Below are positions 2,400 through 23,803 of a stretch of 25,499 bases of DNA, piece after piece; position 1 is the stretch's first letter; each line of letters opens with the position of its first letter. Under the pieces are notes generated by a model. The model was not told the origin of the DNA and did no database searches. It saw only the letters and a program-made list of their open reading frames with translations. Source of the stretch: a virus; IMG/VR virus record IMGVR_UViG_3300042261_001237, positions 1 to 25,499 of that record. One strand, 5' to 3'. A program made the position numbers and the translations under genes.

Positions 2400-2434
2400 T
2401 TCCGGTAAACTGGTGATGCCCAATTCTATTTGAC

Positions 2435-2560
2435 ATGGCAAAACCTAAAGCCAGCTCTTCCATCAAAATTGCGTCCAGACCCAAGAAAACACGCCAAGGA
2501 CAAGGTCAACATTCTTTGCCAAATCACGGGCGCAAGAAAATGCGCGGTCAGGGCAAATAA
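2435..2560 (+). CDS. Tiny basic protein (41 aa)
   Basis: ATG at 2435 opens a 41-residue frame ending at TAA 2558-2560. The product starts MAKPKASSSIKIASRPKKTR and ends GRKKMRGQGK. It is almost entirely Lys, Arg, Gln, Ser and Gly, and its pattern of KKTRQG in the middle with RGQGK at the end resembles tiny conserved cyanophage proteins as I remember them. It fills the gap between the 99-residue protein and the lysozyme start. No good ribosome binding site is seen, which lowers confidence. The same bases in another frame form an implausible extension of the lysozyme ORF (see the lysozyme entry). Confidence 0.6.
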   Translation: MAKPKASSSIKIASRPKKTRQGQGQHSLPNHGRKKMRGQGK

Positions 2561-2573
2561 ATTGTGTATATTA

Positions 2574-2593
2574 GGGGTAACAAGTGTTGCCCC
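2574..2593 (+). promoter_or_regulatory. Hairpin directly before the lysozyme start codon
   Basis: ggggtaac and gttgcccc can pair as an 8-bp stem (one G-T pair) around a 4-base loop, ending one base before the ATG at 2595. The only purine-rich Shine-Dalgarno-like bases (aggggt) lie in the left arm, so folding would hide them. No T-run follows, so it is not a standard terminator. Translational control of the lysozyme is an inference. Confidence 0.45.
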
Positions 2594-2594
2594 T

Positions 2595-3263
2595 ATGTTA
2601 GATCTTTCTCCTGCGGTTGAAATTATCTGTAAATATCAGGGCTTCAATGAACGTGCCTACCCAGATCCAGAAACAGGCGGCGTCCCGTATTCAATTGGCT
2701 ACGGCACACAGTTTTATCCAGATGGTGCGCCAGTAGGCAAAGGCCACCTCTGCACCAAAGAAAAGGCCCTGGAATATTTAGACTTTGAATTGCGTGCTAT
2801 TGATGCAGACCTTGATACGGTCAATTTAAAGCTTGACCCATCAATGCGTCTTGCGCTGATTTCATTCATTCATTCTGTTGGCTGGAACTGTTTTCTTTAC
2901 AGCGAACTTGTCGATTGTATTGCCAATGAAAATTGGGGTGGCGTTGGCTTAGAAATATCCCGTTGGATCTTTGACTGCAACTATCGCGTCATCGGGAACC
3001 TTATTGACAGGCGTCGGGAAGAAATCGCATTGTTCTTGGAGGATGTACCAGGTATTCCAGGCGCCTCCTCCGAGGTTTTACTGACCGCGTTTAGAAATTA
3101 TCTTGCTAGTCCCAGGCAAGTCAAGGCCATCCAAAAGCTGGAAGAAAACATCAACCCTTATGTGCTCGCAGAGTTTGCCAATGACTTTGACCTGTCAGAA
3201 GATGGTTGGCTCCAAGAGTTTCAAATTGACGAAAATGAAGTATTCGATAACCAATGGGATTAG
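2595..3263 (+). CDS. GH24-like (T4/lambdoid-type) lysozyme
   Basis: The product is a predicted phage muramidase cleaving the glycan of peptidoglycan. I place the start at ATG 2595 (222 residues). The frame stays open to a TTG at 2430, but that stretch overlaps the 41-residue ORF and reads as low-quality protein. The N-terminus shows the family signature: KYQGFNERAYPDPETGG followed by VPYSIGYGT. Compared with T4 lysozyme, Asp20 is kept (Asp24 here, same 9-residue spacing). The catalytic Glu11 is replaced by Gln15 and Thr26 by Ser33. The lysozyme domain spans about residues 1-150. A C-terminal tail of about 70 residues carries INPYVLAEFA, nearly the same as ITPEVLAEFA in the endolysin at 13567-14586. 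No signal peptide is seen, so release would need a holin unless the protein is virion-borne. With Gln in place of Glu, activity is uncertain. Confidence 0.78.
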   Translation: MLDLSPAVEIICKYQGFNERAYPDPETGGVPYSIGYGTQFYPDGAPVGKGHLCTKEKALEYLDFELRAIDADLDTVNLKLDPSMRLALISFIHSVGWNCFLYSELVDCIANENWGGVGLEISRWIFDCNYRVIGNLIDRRREEIALFLEDVPGIPGASSEVLLTAFRNYLASPRQVKAIQKLEENINPYVLAEFANDFDLSEDGWLQEFQIDENEVFDNQWD

Positions 3264-3287
3264 AATAAATTGAGCAACAAAAAATCC

Positions 3288-3578
3288 ATGGAGCGTTCTG
3301 TCGAACCAAGGGAATTTGAACTTCCGTTAGAGCTTCAATTTTCCATGCGTCGGGCTGAACTGCAAGCCCAAGAAATGACATGGGATGAGCTCTATTGTGC
3401 CTTGCTTAACCTCTATCGCCAACGGCTGATGGAATGGCAGGCCGTCAAAGAAATCCTGGAAAGCGAAAATATTAAAATCGAATTTGATATGCCAACTGAG
3501 ATGGAATTACTTGAACTCGCCGCCGCCTGCATGGCAGATGACGACGACGAGGAAGACGGTGAGCTTCAGCCGTTCTGA
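3288..3578 (+). CDS. nblA: NblA-like phycobilisome degradation adaptor with acidic C-terminal extension
   Basis: NblA is a small helical adaptor that binds phycobiliproteins and hands them to the Clp protease, dismantling the phycobilisome antenna. Residues 10-58 here (FELPLELQFSMRRAELQAQE, then MTWDELYCALLNLYRQRLME, then a final helix) align without gaps to the cyanobacterial NblA pattern I recall: LSLEQQFSIR, then VQNMS, then LVKLYEQM. NblA is usually about 60 residues. This protein has 96, with an added acidic tail (DDDDEED) near the end. I start at ATG 3288; an in-frame TTG at 3270 is possible. It lies 24 bases after the lysozyme stop and overlaps the convergent DUF3310 gene by 13 bases. 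nblA is known from freshwater cyanophages such as Ma-LMM01 and PaV-LD. The assignment rests on pattern only. Confidence 0.65.
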   Translation: MERSVEPREFELPLELQFSMRRAELQAQEMTWDELYCALLNLYRQRLMEWQAVKEILESENIKIEFDMPTEMELLELAAACMADDDDEEDGELQPF

Positions 3579-4066
3579 GCTTCGTCAAACGCAATAAGGT
3601 GATCCAGATACCACCCTGCTTTCTTTAATGATTCGGTATTTCCCTTAAAACGTTCACGCCAAATATATTTCACAATATTGCCCTTCATATAACCACGGAA
3701 CTCTTCGTCGGTTAATTGCGCTTCAATCGCCTCGATACATTCAATCGCCCCATCAGTGTAGTGAGATGGATGATTGACGTTATCTTCTTTGGTAATCGGA
3801 GAGCTTTCAACAACGGCCCAGGGTACGGGGCAAACACCCCCTGGGCACTCGCTTACGTCTTCTATCGGCTCAAACCACGGCGCTTGTTCGAGAGGATCAT
3901 CTCGGTCGTAGTGTTGGCTGGAGGTAGAACTACCAGTTTGCTTTTTGGCATTGGCAGTGTTCCCGGATACATCCCCGCCTCTTCCACGCTCGGAATGTAA
4001 CCCGTCTTCCCCGGACGGTCCATACCCTCCAGATTCAAGGGATTCCTCTCCAGCCCTTGTTCGCAT
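3566..4066 (-). CDS. DUF3310 family protein
   Basis: The C-terminal 70 residues carry the DUF3310 signature: VNHPSHYTDGAIECIEAIEA, then FRGYMKGNIVKYIWRERFKG, then LKKAGWYLDHLIAF. DUF3310 is a small domain frequent in phages, often labelled a nucleotide kinase without firm evidence; its function is unknown to me. The roughly 95 residues before it are Gly/Ser-rich then acidic and proline-rich (DDPLEQAPWFEPIED) and look like a linker. The start is uncertain. ATG 4066 overlaps about 205 bases of a second ORF in another frame (3862-4215) and has no clear ribosome binding site. The domain may instead be reached by a -1 frameshift from that ORF (see findings). The 3' end overlaps the NblA-like gene by 13 bases, convergently. 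Confidence 0.8.
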   Translation of the reverse strand: MRTRAGEESLESGGYGPSGEDGLHSERGRGGDVSGNTANAKKQTGSSTSSQHYDRDDPLEQAPWFEPIEDVSECPGGVCPVPWAVVESSPITKEDNVNHPSHYTDGAIECIEAIEAQLTDEEFRGYMKGNIVKYIWRERFKGNTESLKKAGWYLDHLIAFDEAQNG

Positions 4067-7546: not shown

Positions 7547-10315
7547 GTGGCTAATAGGCGTATAACAGATCTGCCCGCCATTTCGTCATCAAGTATCAAT
7601 GATGACGATCTTTTAATGGTCGTTGATGTTGCAGAAGTTGACCCAGGCCTTAAAAATAAGAAACTTACTTTTACAGATACAAAGCAGTATTTTAATTCTT
7701 ACTATCTGCAACTCACCGGTGGCACAATTGCTGGCTCGCTGGTTGTTGCAAATAATTTGACCGTTAGTGGTACGTTTAATCCCGTATCTATCAATGTTAG
7801 TGGCACCGGTACTTTTGCCCAATTATTAGTTACTGGTAACGCAGAAGTTCGAAATAGCCTTAGTGGTACTACGATTACCGGCAACACAATTCAAGGCTTA
7901 AACGTTAATGCGTCTACGGGAAACGTAACGACATTAACTGTTGGAACTCAAACTGTTGGTACCGGTAACTTTACTCGTGTCAGCGGTGTCACAATTACCG
8001 GGACAACCGGCGCGTTTGGCACCTTAACGGGTCAAACGATCACGGGAACCACGGGTTTATTTAGTTCTTTAACCGGAACTAATATTACAGGCGTCAATAT
8101 TGTTGGTACAACTCAAATCTCCGGCGCCATCATTACTGGAGGCGCTGGTCGATTCAGCAATATTACAGGTGTTTCGGGTGTCTTTACAACCAGGTTGTCT
8201 GGCGCCACAATCACAGGCGACACTGTTCTATTCACGAACGCAACTGGAGCAACCGGGACCTTTACACGGGTTTCAGGAGCTACGGTTACTGGAAATACAG
8301 TCTTAGCTTCTAACCTGACAGGCGTCAGCGGAACTTTTACAAGAGTTTCCGGCACAACCGTTACCGGAGCAACTGGTTTATTTGGCACAGTAACCGGCTC
8401 TCTTGCAACCTTTACGACGCAAGTTTCTGGTGCTGTTATTACCGGGGACACCGCACAATTCAGTAACGCCACTGGAGTTTCTGGTGTCTTTACAACCAGT
8501 TTGTCTGGTGCCACTTTTACAGGCGATACTGTTTTAGTTTCTAATCTTACGGGTGTTTCCGGGACCTTTACACGAGTCTCCGGCACCACCATCACAGGGA
8601 TTACAGGTTTATTTCAAACAATTACCGCTTTAACCGGTACATTTACAAATACTATTTCAATTCCAACAATTACTACGACAGGCAGCATTAGTGCCGGTGG
8701 TAACCTAAATATCAGTGGGAACGCCATTTTCTCGTCTGGTATTGTTGTCAGCGGTCAAGTTTCAGGAGGTGTTGTTTCTGGAATTAGTGGTATTTTTGGT
8801 GAATTAAGTGGAAACAATATTTACGGATTGACTTCTATTTCCGGAGCAACTATTACAGGTATTTCTGGTAGTTTTGATCGACTTACTGGACAGACAGGTG
8901 TTTTCACAAGTCAGTTAAGTGGCCAAACAATTACAGGTAATACGATTAACGCCACGACCGGTAATTTTGTTACAGGTGTTTTTGGATTTATATCAGGCGC
9001 CACAATCACAGGCAATACCGTTTTATTCACAAGCGCAACAGGAGCAACCGGAACCTTTACACGGGTTTCAGGCTCCACAGTTACTGGTGCAGTCGGCGCA
9101 TTTGGAAATATTACCGGAGAAAACATATGGGCCACGAGTCTTTTATCTGGTCTCACAATTACTGGTAATACGGCTCGCTTTGGTGTTGTTACCGGCGTTT
9201 CTGGAACTTTCACAACTCAACTTTCTGGTGCAATTATTACAGGTGATGCGGGCCAATTCACTAGCGTCACAGGTGTTTCCGGTATTTTTACCACCCGAAT
9301 TTCTGGCAACACAATCACGGGTGTAACAGGTTTATTTACGCAAATCACTGGCGTTAGCGGAGTATTCACTAGCCAGATTTCCGGTGCTGATATTGTTGGC
9401 CAAACAGCCACAATTAATTTCATCACGGGCAGCACTCGAATCCAAAGCCCGCTTATTTCCGGGACATTTGTAACGGGTACTTCGGGACAGTTCACCAGTA
9501 TTGATGCTGATGCTTGTTTGTTTAATGAGTTTATTTCTAATACCGGAATTGTAGGCCACCTTTCGGTAACCACTCTTCTTTCTGGGGCAACGGGCACAAT
9601 TGACATTATTACTGGAAGCACCAGGGTTGAATCGCCGTTGCTTTCGGGAACTACCGTCACAGGAAATACGGGACTATTTACAAATCTCACCGGCGTCAGC
9701 GGAACATTTACAAGTAAGATTTCCAGTGCAAATATTACCGGTACAACAATAGACGCAGTTACCGTTAATGCCACAACCGGTAATTTTACTGTTGCCAACT
9801 TTACGCAAACAACAACAGGAAATATCCTTGCAAGCGGATACATTTCCGGGGTTTCTGGTTTATTTACAAGCGGCTCCGTTTCCGGTCAGGCTTATTACGC
9901 CAGCGGCGGCGTTTTAATTGTTTCTGGCTCTGGAGATATCAGACCCTATGGATTGTTTAGTTTCCCGCCAACGGTTGGAACTTCTGGTTATCAGTTAGTT
10001 ACTAACGGAGATGGAACTACCGCCTGGGGCGCAGGACAGTCCAACGCGGAATCGGTAATTCTCATCAGTGGAGACACAACTGCCAACTCCAACGCGTATC
10101 ATATTTTATTAACCGGTGTCAGCTTAACCTTGCCCGCCGCACCAGGTACCGGTGATTATGTTGGTATAATTAATAGAAGCGACACAGACACCGGCGTGGT
10201 TGTTAGAAACGGAAACAACATTATGGGGTTAGCCGAAAACCTAACGCTTAATGATTTTTACATTAGTTTCCGTTTGATTTATGTGAATTCTGCTCAAGGT
10301 TGGGTCATCGACTGA
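7547..10315 (+). CDS. Large repeat-built tail fibre-like protein (922 aa)
   Basis: GTG 7547 begins MANRRITDLPAISSSSINDD, an N-terminus of the kind found on cyanophage fibre proteins that attach to the virion (residues 1-60). Residues about 65-790 are a long array of 25-26-residue units with a core such as SGATITGDT, then TGVSGTFTR, alternating SG-x-x-x-TG turns with hydrophobic positions. This suggests a trimeric beta-solenoid shaft. The C-terminal 120 residues lose the repeat (GDIRPYGLFSFPPTVGTSGY to LIYVNSAQGWVID) and would form the tip domain. No catalytic motif is seen. Repeat units are also similar at DNA level, for example 8171-8208 and 8477-8514. A second fibre gene follows after 9 bases. 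The likely job is host recognition. Confidence 0.8.
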   Translation: MANRRITDLPAISSSSINDDDLLMVVDVAEVDPGLKNKKLTFTDTKQYFNSYYLQLTGGTIAGSLVVANNLTVSGTFNPVSINVSGTGTFAQLLVTGNAEVRNSLSGTTITGNTIQGLNVNASTGNVTTLTVGTQTVGTGNFTRVSGVTITGTTGAFGTLTGQTITGTTGLFSSLTGTNITGVNIVGTTQISGAIITGGAGRFSNITGVSGVFTTRLSGATITGDTVLFTNATGATGTFTRVSGATVTGNTVLASNLTGVSGTFTRVSGTTVTGATGLFGTVTGSLATFTTQVSGAVITGDTAQFSNATGVSGVFTTSLSGATFTGDTVLVSNLTGVSGTFTRVSGTTITGITGLFQTITALTGTFTNTISIPTITTTGSISAGGNLNISGNAIFSSGIVVSGQVSGGVVSGISGIFGELSGNNIYGLTSISGATITGISGSFDRLTGQTGVFTSQLSGQTITGNTINATTGNFVTGVFGFISGATITGNTVLFTSATGATGTFTRVSGSTVTGAVGAFGNITGENIWATSLLSGLTITGNTARFGVVTGVSGTFTTQLSGAIITGDAGQFTSVTGVSGIFTTRISGNTITGVTGLFTQITGVSGVFTSQISGADIVGQTATINFITGSTRIQSPLISGTFVTGTSGQFTSIDADACLFNEFISNTGIVGHLSVTTLLSGATGTIDIITGSTRVESPLLSGTTVTGNTGLFTNLTGVSGTFTSKISSANITGTTIDAVTVNATTGNFTVANFTQTTTGNILASGYISGVSGLFTSGSVSGQAYYASGGVLIVSGSGDIRPYGLFSFPPTVGTSGYQLVTNGDGTTAWGAGQSNAESVILISGDTTANSNAYHILLTGVSLTLPAAPGTGDYVGIINRSDTDTGVVVRNGNNIMGLAENLTLNDFYISFRLIYVNSAQGWVID

Positions 10316-10324
10316 GATTAGAAA

Positions 10325-13204
10325 ATGTCAAGCTATAGCGACTTTGTTGGTTATGTACCCGATAAGCTGAGGCTTCAGCTGTCCGGCACCGTCACGGGTG
10401 AAGGCGTCATCCCAGCAAATACCCTGGGCCTTCCAAATGAATTTTTTGTCAGTACTGCACAAGGTATTTCGACAACCAGTGGTGGCGTTAGCAACCCCGG
10501 TATTTGTTTAAATACTTCTAATAGTAATTTTAATATTGAAACTGGTGTTACATTTATCTCTTTTCAAAATATCGTTTCGGCCAACGGTGATTTAACAGTT
10601 TCCGGCGAATCAGGCGTAACAACGGCATGTGCGTTTCCAAAATTCGAATACAGTGCTGGTAGTATTACCGGAGTTAATTCTCGCCCCAATCAGTATAATT
10701 TTTCGGCATTAAAGGCAATTGAAGGAAATGTTTTTATAAGCGGAGCTCCAACCACTGGCTCCACCACGTTAAATTTTAGTGGGCTACGTCGTGCAAAAGG
10801 TTTTCTTCTTCAATATAACGCATCGGGCACCATAAGCGGGTTGGATTCTGCGTTTAAATCATTTATCGCTTGTGTTCCACAAGCTTCAATTACAGGTATT
10901 GCCGACGTAACCTTAAATACCTATCCTTTTACAGGTTATGCGGAAAGCACGGGAGGCTCCCTTCCCATTACGGAAAACTCAATTTATATCTTGCCCTCTG
11001 GCGCGCCTAGCGGCATAACCGCTTCTAGTACATTTACTGGTGACTTCTTATCTGGTTTAAAACAAGGTTCTGTTAATTTTTACAGTCCTAATAATTTTAC
11101 TGAAGTTAAACTAGCGCAAAATTATTTAAACCCAGTTCCCACAGGTGCTCCTGCGCTTTTTAATTACATTGTAACCTCGGGAGTGACCGGAGTAACTTTT
11201 CCGCCTGTTAGCGGTTATGTTTATTACATGGTTACATTGAACTCGGGTGCGGCATCGGGAGCCCCCTTAGATATTCAAGTTAAAACAACGGGGGGTAGCG
11301 GCACCTTTCTAGGGTTTGTTTACCAAACAAGATCGGCTTTATTTGGTTCTTATAAACGTGTAAATATTACATTTAGTGGTTATAGCGCTACCTCTGGTAA
11401 TCGTGTAATAAAAACACTTAACCCTGCAGTTCCTTTTGTTATTTCTTGTTATAACGCTTCTGGTGTTTTTGTTTCCGGCAATGACCTAACTCGTTTTCTT
11501 TCAGCTCAAGTAAACACCGGACCATCTGCATATATGATAACGACTAACGGGCCGTTAACATATACAGCAACGGGCACAGTCTTGTCATATGCCGGTGCCG
11601 CCGTTGGTAATAGTGGTGGCGTTTATTTTGCCGCCAGTGGTAACAGCACAACGGGAACATTTAATTTTCTTAATGTATTAAATATAACAGGCTCAAGCGC
11701 AAACCTAGGTGCTTATGCACTTATTGCTACAGGTACAAACTCAAGGGCAACACTTAATCTACCGCAAGCAACCGGGCTTTATACGACAATCTGTGGTATA
11801 GCTAACAACGCACAAGCAACTGTTGTGATTGACGCCCCTTTGCTTGCAACTGGAGATTCAAATGCAAACATAATTATTCAAGCAAATAATACAACCAGCG
11901 CAACCGGGATTCTTACCCTGGCGCACCCATTGGCAAACAATCAAATTACCATAACCAGTACAGCCAATAGCGGAAGAGTAACAATTAACACAACTGGTGG
12001 AACACCTATTACAAGTGGTTCTTTTAACCGTATCGCATTGAGCGCAACATCTGGCGGCACTGTTACGGGAGTCTTAGGTGCTACTAGCTCTGTAAGCGCT
12101 GGTATTAGCATTTCTGCAACAACCACCGGTATTGTTTCTTTAACAGCAACGGGACTTACAGGCGTAGCGTCTTTTACAGGAAGCACAGTTTCAGGAGGAT
12201 TTGTAACCGGTAATTTTCCAAACCTTCAAGAGGTTACGGGAGGGCTACTTTTTAGTATTAGTGGTAGTGGTGGGCTTGATATTTCAAACTTACGGAATGT
12301 TGGTGTATTTATAATCAGCGGTAGTGCAGCTGCGGGCAGTATTTCAATCAATGGACGTTCAGATTTAAGTGGGTTGAATACTGTAACTGGTATTGGTTCA
12401 ACCTCTAACAACACCACTCCATTTTTTATTGTAACTGGAAACAGTACTAGCCTTACGGGGGCCATTGTAATGACCGGCCTCAAGCAAATTGGGCCTACTG
12501 CTAATACAACAGGTTCGCCTAGTAATATTTTAAACAACAACATGCTAAGTAGGATTGAAACAACTGGAATTACTCTCTTTGATCTTCCAAACTTGACGGG
12601 CTGGTATGGTTCGGTTGTGGTAAACATTCCTCAAGCAACTGGCTTTAATTTATCTAACTTGCAATTTATAGGGGGCAACTCCGCGAATGGCTTCCAAAAC
12701 AATTCAATCTCGGGAATCGTATTTACAATTGGCAGCGGTGTTACTGGGAATATTACAATGACAGGCTTGCAATATATTTATGTTAGAGATCAGTACTCCA
12801 ATCCTGCTAATGCCACTCCAATACCTTTCATATTTCGTGCTTCAGGGGCAACAAGCATCTCCATGCCAAATATTATTACAGGATTCCTAAGGCACACATC
12901 AGGCAATTTTACAAACACTGGAACATTTTCCGGTGCAAATATCACGGGCCTTTCATTTGGTTCTTCTGGAATTACAAAAGAACTTACAATGAATTTCATA
13001 GCAAGTGGTTGTCCGCTTAACCAAGCGAGTGTTGATGATATTCTTAAGACGTTTGCCTCGCTTGATGGTACTAACGGAACTACCGTATATAGCGGACTTA
13101 CAATTAGACTTAATGGTTTATGTTCAGCACCCTCGGCAGCTGGTAGTGGTTATCGCACAACCTTGACGGGTGCTGGACGCCTCAACACGGTGTTGGTTAA
13201 CTAA
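10325..13204 (+). CDS. Second large fibre/adhesin-like protein (959 aa) with irregular leucine-rich-like repeats
   Basis: ATG 10325 follows a good ribosome binding site (GAGATTAGAAA). The N-terminus (MSSYSDFVGYVPDKLRLQLS) is followed by hundreds of residues rich in Thr, Ser, Gly, Asn and Ile. Irregular units pair a landmark such as FPNLQEVTG, ISNLRNVGV, MTGLKQIG, LPNLTGW or LSNLQFIG with a strand and a small-residue turn. This resembles receptor L-domain or BspA-type leucine-rich repeats, which make curved beta-sheet adhesion surfaces. Repeats run through most of residues 130-900. No enzyme motif and no membrane segment are seen. Composition and SG/TG turns resemble the upstream fibre, so the two may act together in adsorption. 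A structural carbohydrate- or protein-binding role is inferred. Confidence 0.72.
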   Translation: MSSYSDFVGYVPDKLRLQLSGTVTGEGVIPANTLGLPNEFFVSTAQGISTTSGGVSNPGICLNTSNSNFNIETGVTFISFQNIVSANGDLTVSGESGVTTACAFPKFEYSAGSITGVNSRPNQYNFSALKAIEGNVFISGAPTTGSTTLNFSGLRRAKGFLLQYNASGTISGLDSAFKSFIACVPQASITGIADVTLNTYPFTGYAESTGGSLPITENSIYILPSGAPSGITASSTFTGDFLSGLKQGSVNFYSPNNFTEVKLAQNYLNPVPTGAPALFNYIVTSGVTGVTFPPVSGYVYYMVTLNSGAASGAPLDIQVKTTGGSGTFLGFVYQTRSALFGSYKRVNITFSGYSATSGNRVIKTLNPAVPFVISCYNASGVFVSGNDLTRFLSAQVNTGPSAYMITTNGPLTYTATGTVLSYAGAAVGNSGGVYFAASGNSTTGTFNFLNVLNITGSSANLGAYALIATGTNSRATLNLPQATGLYTTICGIANNAQATVVIDAPLLATGDSNANIIIQANNTTSATGILTLAHPLANNQITITSTANSGRVTINTTGGTPITSGSFNRIALSATSGGTVTGVLGATSSVSAGISISATTTGIVSLTATGLTGVASFTGSTVSGGFVTGNFPNLQEVTGGLLFSISGSGGLDISNLRNVGVFIISGSAAAGSISINGRSDLSGLNTVTGIGSTSNNTTPFFIVTGNSTSLTGAIVMTGLKQIGPTANTTGSPSNILNNNMLSRIETTGITLFDLPNLTGWYGSVVVNIPQATGFNLSNLQFIGGNSANGFQNNSISGIVFTIGSGVTGNITMTGLQYIYVRDQYSNPANATPIPFIFRASGATSISMPNIITGFLRHTSGNFTNTGTFSGANITGLSFGSSGITKELTMNFIASGCPLNQASVDDILKTFASLDGTNGTTVYSGLTIRLNGLCSAPSAAGSGYRTTLTGAGRLNTVLVN

Positions 13205-13566: not shown

Positions 13567-14586
13567 ATGACAATACAACTGGTCGATGCTGCTTTTTATT
13601 TCAAAAAAGAACAGCATCAGACTGATGCCTGGAATTGGCTACAAAAACAAATAACACCAGAGGTCTTGGCGGAATTTGCCAAGCGTTATCGGGAACCTGA
13701 ACAAAAAACAACGGCAACATTCCCAAATACTTGGGATGGAATCTACGCCGCTGCTAAAAGCGCAGGTGCAAAATACCCAGAAGTTGTTGCAGCCCAATGG
13801 GCATTAGAAAGTTCCTGGGGAAAGCACACCTCTGGCACTAACAATTACTTTGGATTAAAAGGCGACGGTACCAAAGCCAATACACAAGAATTCATTAACG
13901 GTAAATGGATCACAATTAACGCAGGTTTCTTGGATTTCCCCGATCTTTACACCTGTGTTTGTTATTTAGTTGACCGCTGGTACAAAGACTTTGGCCGCTT
14001 TTCTGGTGTTAATCGTGCCAAAAGCAGAAATGAATGTGCAGAGCTTTTAGTCAAAGAAAAATACGCCACAGATCCCGACTATGCAAAAAAATTGCAGCAG
14101 ATTATGGATCGGCAGCTTGGCACAGTCGGCTCAACCACAGTCAAAACAGATCCAGAACAAGCACATCCTTTTAATCCTTGGAGCCCCTTCACCTATAAAG
14201 TAACGCCCAACATTACTTATGGGGAACTGACCTTAAACCAAGAGGCCAGACGATTCCGCAAACAGTATCAATGTGACACTGCACTAGAACTCTGTCGTTT
14301 TCTGGAAAGAGTTAGGGCGGCTTTTGGCAACAAGCCGATTATTATCACTAGCGCATCACGACCAGAACCCATTAATACACAAGTTGGTGGCGCAAAGAAT
14401 AGTGAACATACTTTTAACGCTCCTTCCAAGGGCGCCGTTGACTTTTACATCCAAGGTGCCAGTATTTATGCAGTACAAGATTGGTGCGATAAACATTGGC
14501 CATACAGTGTTGGGTACGGCGCCGACCGTGGGTTTGTGCATTTAGGGATGAGAGAAAATAAACCAAGAGTGCGCTGGGATTATTAA
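13567..14586 (+). CDS. Two-domain endolysin: glucosaminidase-like plus peptidase M15-like
   Basis: AGGA six bases before ATG 13567 supports the start. Three parts are visible. Residues 15-43 (AWNWLQKQITPEVLAEFAKR) form a short module, part of which recurs in the lysozyme at 2595-3263. Residues about 50-185 resemble a GH73-type glucosaminidase, with the likely catalytic Glu81 in AAQWALESSWGKH and a following TNNYFGLKG. Residues about 205-339 resemble peptidase M15 (PF08291-like): SASRPEPINTQVGGAKNSEH, then GAVDFY, then GFVHLG, giving zinc ligands His281, Asp292 and His325. Together they would cut both glycan and peptide bonds of peptidoglycan. No signal peptide is present, so it is either virion-borne or released through a holin. 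The following 53-residue gene starts 3 bases downstream. Confidence 0.85.
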   Translation: MTIQLVDAAFYFKKEQHQTDAWNWLQKQITPEVLAEFAKRYREPEQKTTATFPNTWDGIYAAAKSAGAKYPEVVAAQWALESSWGKHTSGTNNYFGLKGDGTKANTQEFINGKWITINAGFLDFPDLYTCVCYLVDRWYKDFGRFSGVNRAKSRNECAELLVKEKYATDPDYAKKLQQIMDRQLGTVGSTTVKTDPEQAHPFNPWSPFTYKVTPNITYGELTLNQEARRFRKQYQCDTALELCRFLERVRAAFGNKPIIITSASRPEPINTQVGGAKNSEHTFNAPSKGAVDFYIQGASIYAVQDWCDKHWPYSVGYGADRGFVHLGMRENKPRVRWDY

Positions 14587-18873: not shown

Positions 18874-19221
18874 TCAGGGTGTTGTAGACCGAACAAGCTC
18901 TTGTTGTTTTATAGTTTTGGCCTTCAATTTTGTCTTTAAAAATTGAGATGCCTTTTCGCCTTTTGTCTTGTCACCACAGGTGTAAAGATCAAGGGCGGCA
19001 TAGCCAATTTCTGGCCACGTATGAATAGATGCGTGGGATTCTGCCAATAGCGCCAGTAGCGTCACCCCTTGCGGCTTAAACTTCTCGCCAATGATCCGCA
19101 AGATGGTGGCATTCGCCATCAACAGAGCTGTCTGCAGCAGTTCCTGCAACCGATCAAAATCATCCAGAATTACTGGATCACAGTCATACAAATCCAGTAT
19201 TAAGTGACGACCGTTGCTCAA
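18874..19221 (-). CDS. speD: S-adenosylmethionine decarboxylase proenzyme
   Basis: SpeD decarboxylates S-adenosylmethionine to supply aminopropyl groups for spermidine. The 115-residue protein is the short prokaryotic type. LLALLAESHASIHTWPEIGY gives self-cleavage between Glu61 and Ser62 (Ser62 becoming the pyruvoyl group), His67 for processing, and Cys82 in LYTCGD as catalytic acid. These match Ser63, His68 and Cys83 of the Thermotoga enzyme, offset by one. The start is TTG 19221, overlapping the primase-helicase stop as TTGA. The next residues (SNGRHLILDLYDCDP) are the usual family start. speD is a known auxiliary gene of cyanophages, where it may support polyamine supply or photosystem stability. 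Confidence 0.93.
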   Translation of the reverse strand: MSNGRHLILDLYDCDPVILDDFDRLQELLQTALLMANATILRIIGEKFKPQGVTLLALLAESHASIHTWPEIGYAALDLYTCGDKTKGEKASQFLKTKLKAKTIKQQELVRSTTP

Positions 19222-23462: not shown

Positions 23463-23567
23463 ATGGAAGAATTCAAACTTGTGATTCTAACTCTGCTCAT
23501 TTCGATCTTTGTTACGGCTACAATTGACATCTTCGTTGTTTTTGGCGGACTGCATTGGACGCACTAA
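23463..23567 (+). CDS. Tiny single-pass membrane peptide (34 aa)
   Basis: ATG 23463 opens a 34-residue frame ending TAA 23565-23567. The chain is one hydrophobic helix, LVILTLLISIFVTATIDIFV, with an acidic start (MEEF) and an aromatic end (GLHWTH). Its size and shape resemble small thylakoid membrane subunits, but the sequence does not match one I can name. It overlaps the Hli start by 13 bases, so the two may be translated together. A photosynthetic membrane role is a guess from context. Confidence 0.6.
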   Translation: MEEFKLVILTLLISIFVTATIDIFVVFGGLHWTH

Positions 23568-23803
23568 CCAAAGCCAAACTCTGGATCGTTGGAATCGGGA
23601 GTTGCTTTTCTTGGATATTCAAGGTGCTGTGGGATGAATACCTCGTCGATCTGCACAGCGACAAGTTCCCCTGGCACCCGAATGACTACATCTGGTATGC
23701 CGAACGCTGGAACGGACGTGTTGCAATGATTGGCGTCTTGGCTATTCTGCAGCTGGAATTGATCTACAAGGTCAGCATCTGGGAGCTTATCGGTGTCCTG
23801 TAA
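23555..23803 (+). CDS. hli: High-light-inducible protein (Hli)
   Basis: Hli proteins are single-helix chlorophyll-binding proteins of the thylakoid that protect photosystems from excess light and assist chlorophyll handling. Residues 49-72 (AERWNGRVAMIGVLAILQLE) show the LHC motif, with Glu50, Asn53 and Arg55 as chlorophyll and helix-pairing positions. The start is TTG 23555, giving 82 residues. The 40 residues before the motif (WIVGIGSCFSWIFKVLWDEY) are unusually hydrophobic, so the true start may lie further in, or this may be an added segment. hli genes are common auxiliary genes in marine cyanophages. The stop overlaps the next gene's start by 11 bases. Confidence 0.88.
   Translation: MDALTKAKLWIVGIGSCFSWIFKVLWDEYLVDLHSDKFPWHPNDYIWYAERWNGRVAMIGVLAILQLELIYKVSIWELIGVL

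Follow-up and report, generated by a model that had tools for sequence, protein, structure and literature searches.

A viral DNA stretch of 25,499 nucleotides (positions 1 to 25,499 of IMG/VR virus record IMGVR_UViG_3300042261_001237; hereafter the window) encodes a 96-residue protein that is by descent a homolog of NblA, the protein that sets off antenna breakdown in cyanobacteria, and is not a typical NblA. We consider it, on balance, probably a lineage-specific, divergent NblA-type Clp adaptor of S-EIV1-like cyanophages that most likely still serves phycobilisomes. NblA has been described as an adaptor of about 60 residues for ClpC, with a helix-loop-helix fold (PMC7966870). Phage nblA genes are already established in Ma-LMM01, MaMV-DC, PaV-LD, and T7-like and T4-like marine phages, and phycobilin was lost upon heterologous expression of phage NblAs, whether these came from freshwater isolates or from marine viral metagenomes (PMC9602691). 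What appears to be new here is a conserved, tailed NblA homolog in the S-EIV1-like lineage. A 2017 survey gives the S-EIV1 group hli and ptoX only and credits nblA to other groups (PMC5332604), and the passages covered of literature naming both S-EIV1 and nblA do not assign the gene to the S-EIV1 lineage, so far as those passages go; an earlier notice is possible. Cyanophage NblAs are known to act on the antenna of the host, and an effect on oceanic photosynthesis is reported in a 2025 Nature paper (cited in PMC13386980). The S-EIV1 lineage is widespread and its gene is annotated as hypothetical; if the protein acts on phycobilisomes, a further whole phage lineage would join the NblA account. 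The features of the gene and its neighbors are collected in Table 1.

Table 1. Coordinates in the window of the tailed NblA-like gene, its parts, and the adjoining genes
Feature	Position	Strand	Basis or remark
Tailed NblA-like gene, 96 aa	3288..3578	+	ATG 3288, stop 3576-3578; translation
NblA-homologous core, residues 10-58	3315..3461	+	Pfam PF04485, hhalign, and 1OJH matches
N-terminal E-L-P-L-E-L-Q-F, residues 11-18	3318..3341	+	Counterpart of NblA E-L-S-L-E-Q-Q-F; column comparison
Predicted helix 1, residues 14-28	3327..3371	+	AlphaFold2
Predicted helix 2, residues 32-59	3381..3464	+	AlphaFold2
Family-specific extension, residues 59-81	3462..3530	+	Stands where NblA has H-Q-W-G-L; invariant residues
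Acidic stretch DDDDEED, residues 84-90	3537..3557	+	Acidity kept across the family, length varies
C-terminal tip L-Q-P-F, residues 93-96	3564..3575	+	Resembles the SSB acidic-x-P-F tip
Phage lysozyme/endolysin, upstream neighbor	2430..3263	+	PF00959, E = 3.2e-13; PHROG endolysin
DUF3310 gene, convergent downstream neighbor	3566..4066	-	PF11753, E = 4.5e-20

The open reading frame is a real, translated gene under purifying selection, as its median dN/dS is approximately 0 in the core and 0.15 over residues 59 to 82. Comparison with relatives places the start of conservation at the ATG and not at an upstream TTG at position 3270. The protein reads F-E-L-P-L-E-L-Q-F-S at residues 10 to 19, M-T-W-D-E at residues 30 to 34, L-Y-R-Q at residues 42 to 45, and DDDDEED at residues 84 to 90; every motif listed in the preliminary description is thus present, and in register.

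The preliminary description had matched residues 10 to 58 to the NblA pattern without gaps, and three alignments agreed. The Pfam NblA model (PF04485) matched residues 11 to 57, the profile of the tailed family aligned ungapped with residues 5 to 53 of Anabaena NblA (PDB 1OJH; E = 1.3e-4), and hhalign against 27 cyanobacterial NblAs gave 50 ungapped columns with 36% identity (probability 95.1, E = 3.4e-8). The Pfam search that the same description had proposed as a check gave a divided answer, in that the match was significant (E = 1.6e-4) but its 22.5 bits fell below the curated cut-off of 25 bits. All 22 family representatives matched this model (best E = 2.6e-6), and in genome-wide HMM searches nine relatives rose above the cut-off, at 25.6 to 29.0 bits. 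The Synechococcus elongatus NblA structure (PDB 3CS5) was reached by the family profile with E = 0.8. In 200 column shuffles the best hhalign score was 21.3, against 43.8 for the real alignment, and the probability did not exceed 15.5, so the resemblance goes beyond chance. From these profile comparisons, we judge residues 10 to 58 to be homologous to NblA, with a kinship that is real and distant. It is highly improbable that a short two-helix protein with no kinship to NblA produced the likeness by chance; such a reading would accommodate the score of the 96-residue protein under the Pfam cut-off, a core of just 50 residues, and the lack of an NblA among the Foldseek results, but it is opposed by the matches of all representatives to one Pfam family, by shuffled profiles that reached no more than half the real score, by the concordance of reciprocal HMM searches between the tailed family and NblA, and by the origin of the DNA in a cyanophage, a type of virus in which nblA is known. 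Weak Pfam matches to PHF12_MRG_bd, DUF4030, and TADA2A, and PDB matches of the family profile to HRD1, were below cut-off or reflected acidic or helical composition and were discarded. A tblastn search of phage records with Nostoc NblA returned nothing even at E = 10; the method is too insensitive for this family, since it missed the NblAs of Ma-LMM01 and S-TIP37 that an HMM detects.

The tailed family and cyanobacterial NblA (PDB 1OJH, 3CS5, 2QDO, and 2Q8V) have in common the 50-column ungapped core with its helix-turn-helix, the E-L-x-L-E-x-Q-F motif, the M-[ST] turn, and L-Y-x-Q in helix 2. Four residues that are invariant in the tailed family, W32, R46, W50, and K54, are not shared by the cyanobacterial proteins. 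The two ends of the core have fared differently. At the N-terminal end, where the ClpC-binding motif of NblA has been reported (PMC4103541), L-S-L-E-Q-Q-F has become L-P-L-E-L-Q-F, with five of the seven positions kept and the changes of S to P and of the first Q to L found family-wide. The region of NblA reported to bind phycobiliproteins is C-terminal and holds the K-H-Q-W-G-L motif at the end of helix 2, whose K and W occur in 27/27 cyanobacterial NblAs. Leu51 and Lys53 of Anabaena NblA are implicated in phycobilisome binding, Lys53 being the counterpart of residue 58 in the tailed protein. Column by column, K-H-Q-W-G-L was missing from 39/39 family members, and among 120 distinct members none had W-G-L or a K at position 58, which is A, E, Q, or D. 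The reported ClpC-facing part thus appears to be mostly kept and the reported cargo-facing part remodeled, given an N-terminal motif that is largely retained and a residue 58 that is never Lys.

Behind the core, the protein has what cyanobacterial NblAs do not. It is not a typical NblA, since it has neither the C-terminal motif nor the usual length: it is about 25 to 30 residues longer, with an acidic tail and an aromatic C terminus, and its 120 distinct family members span 93 to 106 residues, against 58 to 66 in the 27 cyanobacterial NblAs. Counted from the start of the L-S-L-E motif, the cyanobacterial proteins end after 52 to 60 residues and the 96-residue protein after 85, which bears out the earlier observation that extra residues, DDDDEED among them, run beyond NblA length. 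Residues 59 to 81 follow the consensus xENI.[IL][DE]FD.PTD.EL.ELAAAC. Across 39 distinct sequences this segment is conserved nearly as well as the core, with E60, D67, P69, T70, E73, L74, E76, and L77 invariant. After residue 81, D and E make up 58% of the residues in the 120 distinct proteins, whose acidic runs are of differing length. At the C terminus, 117/120 distinct relatives have F and 2/120 have Y, hence an aromatic residue in 119/120; the penultimate residue is P in 98 of the 120, and one branch of the family ends in S-V-F, S-I-F, or S-F-F. The tail had been described as an addition that standard NblAs lack. It is indeed absent from the standard NblAs examined, but it is not an add-on in one phage; it is a conserved trait of the whole phage lineage and not a peculiarity of one protein. 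The alignment columns further indicate that it stands in place of the K-H-Q-W-G-L region and not merely behind it. The Clp-recruiting role suggested for the tail is hypothetical, the ClpC-binding motif reported for NblA being at the opposite, N-terminal end (PMC4103541).

In the AlphaFold2 model, the two core helices (Table 1) have pLDDT values mostly above 90, with 93 to 97 in most blocks, and the full-length model adds a third helix at residues 71 to 88 with lower confidence. The predicted secondary structure of the core corresponds to the NblA helix-loop-helix. The expected helix-turn-helix was predicted for the core, but a structural match to NblA was not obtained: Foldseek gave nothing meaningful and no NblA for the full-length model against PDB and BFVD, and no NblA structure for the 62-residue core against PDB, a two-helix hairpin this short being a poor and uninformative query.

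The best match in an isolate was to Synechococcus phage S-EIV1, whose host is Synechococcus; its protein AHV82245.1, annotated as hypothetical, is 61% identical over residues 1 to 70. The S-EIV1 protein and the IMG/VR family represent the same gene with the same neighbors and whole-length similarity (59 to 96% identity), and in the S-EIV1 branch the acidic part is longer and the protein ends in K-E-L-A-P-F. Scans of IMG/VR gave 389 relatives in one case and at least 556 and at least 536 in two others, and the family is present in at least 550 viral stretches. A scan of 84,980 genomes of bacteria and archaea, which reaches close relatives only, turned up none. The lysozyme stop codon lies 24 bases ahead of the NblA-like ATG, and the NblA-like and DUF3310 genes share 13 bases where their ends meet. 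The earlier placement of an NblA homolog beside a lysozyme in a cyanophage stands. The arrangement is uniform: among loci with room for the neighbor, all of them fetched through the NblA-like gene itself, the lysozyme was upstream on the same strand in 146/146, the DUF3310 gene adjoined on the opposite strand in 144/144, and a dCTP deaminase came next in 126/126. With loci retrieved by way of the dCTP deaminase instead, 70/70 of those with room carried the NblA-like gene. This test used the 80 closest relatives and a deaminase approximately 1 kb away, and it is for that reason a fair one for the S-EIV1-like lineage and not for remote ones. In light of the 70 loci, the NblA-like gene is a core gene at a fixed position in the S-EIV1-like lineage, as far as sampled.

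The gene ends a rightward block holding a terminase, a peptidase M23, and the lysozyme, and this position at the end of a terminase-to-lysozyme block suggests late expression. No promoter of its own was seen on the plus strand before the gene, and promoter- and terminator-like sites between positions 1900 and 4700 were no commoner than in shuffled sequence. The fixed place right after the lysozyme, where the terminase-containing block ends, and the standing of the gene as a core gene and not a come-and-go auxiliary one would both suit a helper that acts late, in the virion, in assembly, or in lysis, and borrows an NblA-type hairpin with no Clp or antenna role. We find this distinctly unlikely, as NblA-specific residues stay in register over 50 columns and would be needless in a generic helical hairpin.

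The simplest function would still be antenna degradation through a changed interface, and an NblA-like mode of working is likely. As we picture the divergent Clp adaptor, its core would fold and dimerize like NblA, and its retained N-terminal half would engage the ClpC chaperone of the host. The remodeled C-terminal half, comprising the end of helix 2 and residues 59 to 96, would contact the cargo, for which phycobiliproteins of the host Synechococcus, bound by way of the changed interface, are the likeliest candidates, and the complex would deliver antenna to the ClpC-ClpP protease. In the infected cell, antenna breakdown could then free amino acids and lower light capture. A separate protein-protein contact is probably made by the acidic tip with its terminal Phe. 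This picture is favored by the profile homology, the predicted helix-turn-helix, strong purifying selection, the Synechococcus host of S-EIV1, and the phycobilin loss that other cyanophage NblAs cause (PMC9602691). Several observations weigh against an antenna-directed NblA, including the family-wide absence of K-H-Q-W-G-L, the replacement of the first Q of L-S-L-E-Q-Q-F by L throughout, and the missing Foldseek match, for which the hairpin was a poor query. The late-type position counts against it as well, being unlike that of nblA in Ma-LMM01 and S-TIP37, which lies beside genes of nucleotide metabolism. The Microcystis phage Ma-LMM01 NblA (BAF36096) has the NblA core and scores 52 bits to PF04485, but unlike the tailed protein it retains K-K-N-W-G-L-E, ends soon after, and adjoins nrdA. 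The NblA of the T7-like cyanophage S-TIP37 (MH540083), the one such phage examined, likewise has a diverged C terminus without W-G-L and scores 28 bits, above the Pfam cut-off. By analogy with S-TIP37, whose NblA is also without the motif, loss of the exact K-H-Q-W-G-L need not abolish an antenna role. The S-TIP37 protein differs from the tailed one in having no long acidic tail and in lying between exonuclease and ribonucleotide reductase genes, and it reaches only 10 bits against the tailed family profile. Its coding region (MH540083.1, 12521-12661) carries no CDS annotation and overlaps the end of the exonuclease gene.

The main rival is a retargeted adaptor, in which the core still binds ClpC and the new C-terminal part presents some other host cargo, a possible if unlikely arrangement. 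It draws on the same pattern of an N-terminal motif largely kept and a phycobiliprotein-binding end swapped for an equally conserved new segment. In one version the acidic Pro-Phe tip would imitate the C-terminal peptide of SSB and capture SSB-binding replication or repair proteins. The tip is acidic and then x-P-F in most members, with the aromatic end noted above, and so resembles the SSB tip DDDIPF (PMC5872125), an acidic run followed by Pro-Phe at the extreme C terminus; all 18 SSBs inspected from the S-EIV1-like lineage end in acidic-x-P-F. Four sequences from the lineage contain 727 frames of at least 90 codons, and just 10 of these end in PF, of which 4 are the NblA-like protein and 3 are SSB. 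Unlike SSB, the tailed protein has no OB fold, and its Pro is not invariant. Short acidic hydrophobic tails also arise easily. Moreover, the branch with the S-V-F, S-I-F, or S-F-F tip keeps P-P-F on its SSB in the two genomes checked, so that the NblA-like and SSB tips do not co-vary in the sole branch where this can be judged. Competition for SSB partners by the tip could occur, and the likeness of the termini is a lead rather than a result. That an NblA scaffold with its ClpC end kept and an SSB-like tip has become a Clp adaptor for replication, repair, or another non-antenna host target strikes us as very unlikely. Because the tailed protein is without the end that usually binds cargo, it can serve as a natural test of which NblA parts choose cargo and of whether the Clp protease of the host can be redirected by phages.

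One contig, IMGVR_UViG_3300042503_000838 (G007), seemed to carry two NblAs, one tailed and one classical, with 13 kb between them, and was set aside as such a case. Its bases 46000 to 125842 are a full-length S-EIV1-like genome, and between 11 and 37 kb its terminase, connector, capsid, DNA polymerase, and other genes match those of the T7-like phage S-TIP37 in order; on that basis G007 is probably a chimera of a T7-like cyanophage section (1-46000) joined to an S-EIV1-like genome. The other family contigs searched yielded no second NblA, barring a 12-bit match with a stop in one of them (G001).

Some further genes are worth recording. In S-EIV1 itself (KJ410740), besides SSB and the NblA-like protein, a further open reading frame ends in acidic-x-P-F, its end being MMNKFAGPSRTTGNMPSQRGDDTPF. 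In the window, two large proteins of 922 and 959 residues (7547-10312 and 10325-13201), neither with a PHROG match, are rich in G, T, and S and are perhaps tail fibers; the 922-residue protein is built of repeats like G-T-F-T-R-V-S-G-A-T-I-T-G. A second lysis-type protein with glucosaminidase and peptidase M15 domains is encoded at 13567-14583, so that together with the lysozyme the phage has two cell-wall enzymes. An 82-residue open reading frame at 23555-23803 contains E-R-W-N-G-R-V-A-M-I-G and resembles high-light-inducible proteins, with no Pfam match at 1e-3. An S-adenosylmethionine decarboxylase (PF02675, E = 6.6e-36) lies beside a primase at 18874-19221, and S-EIV1 has one too.
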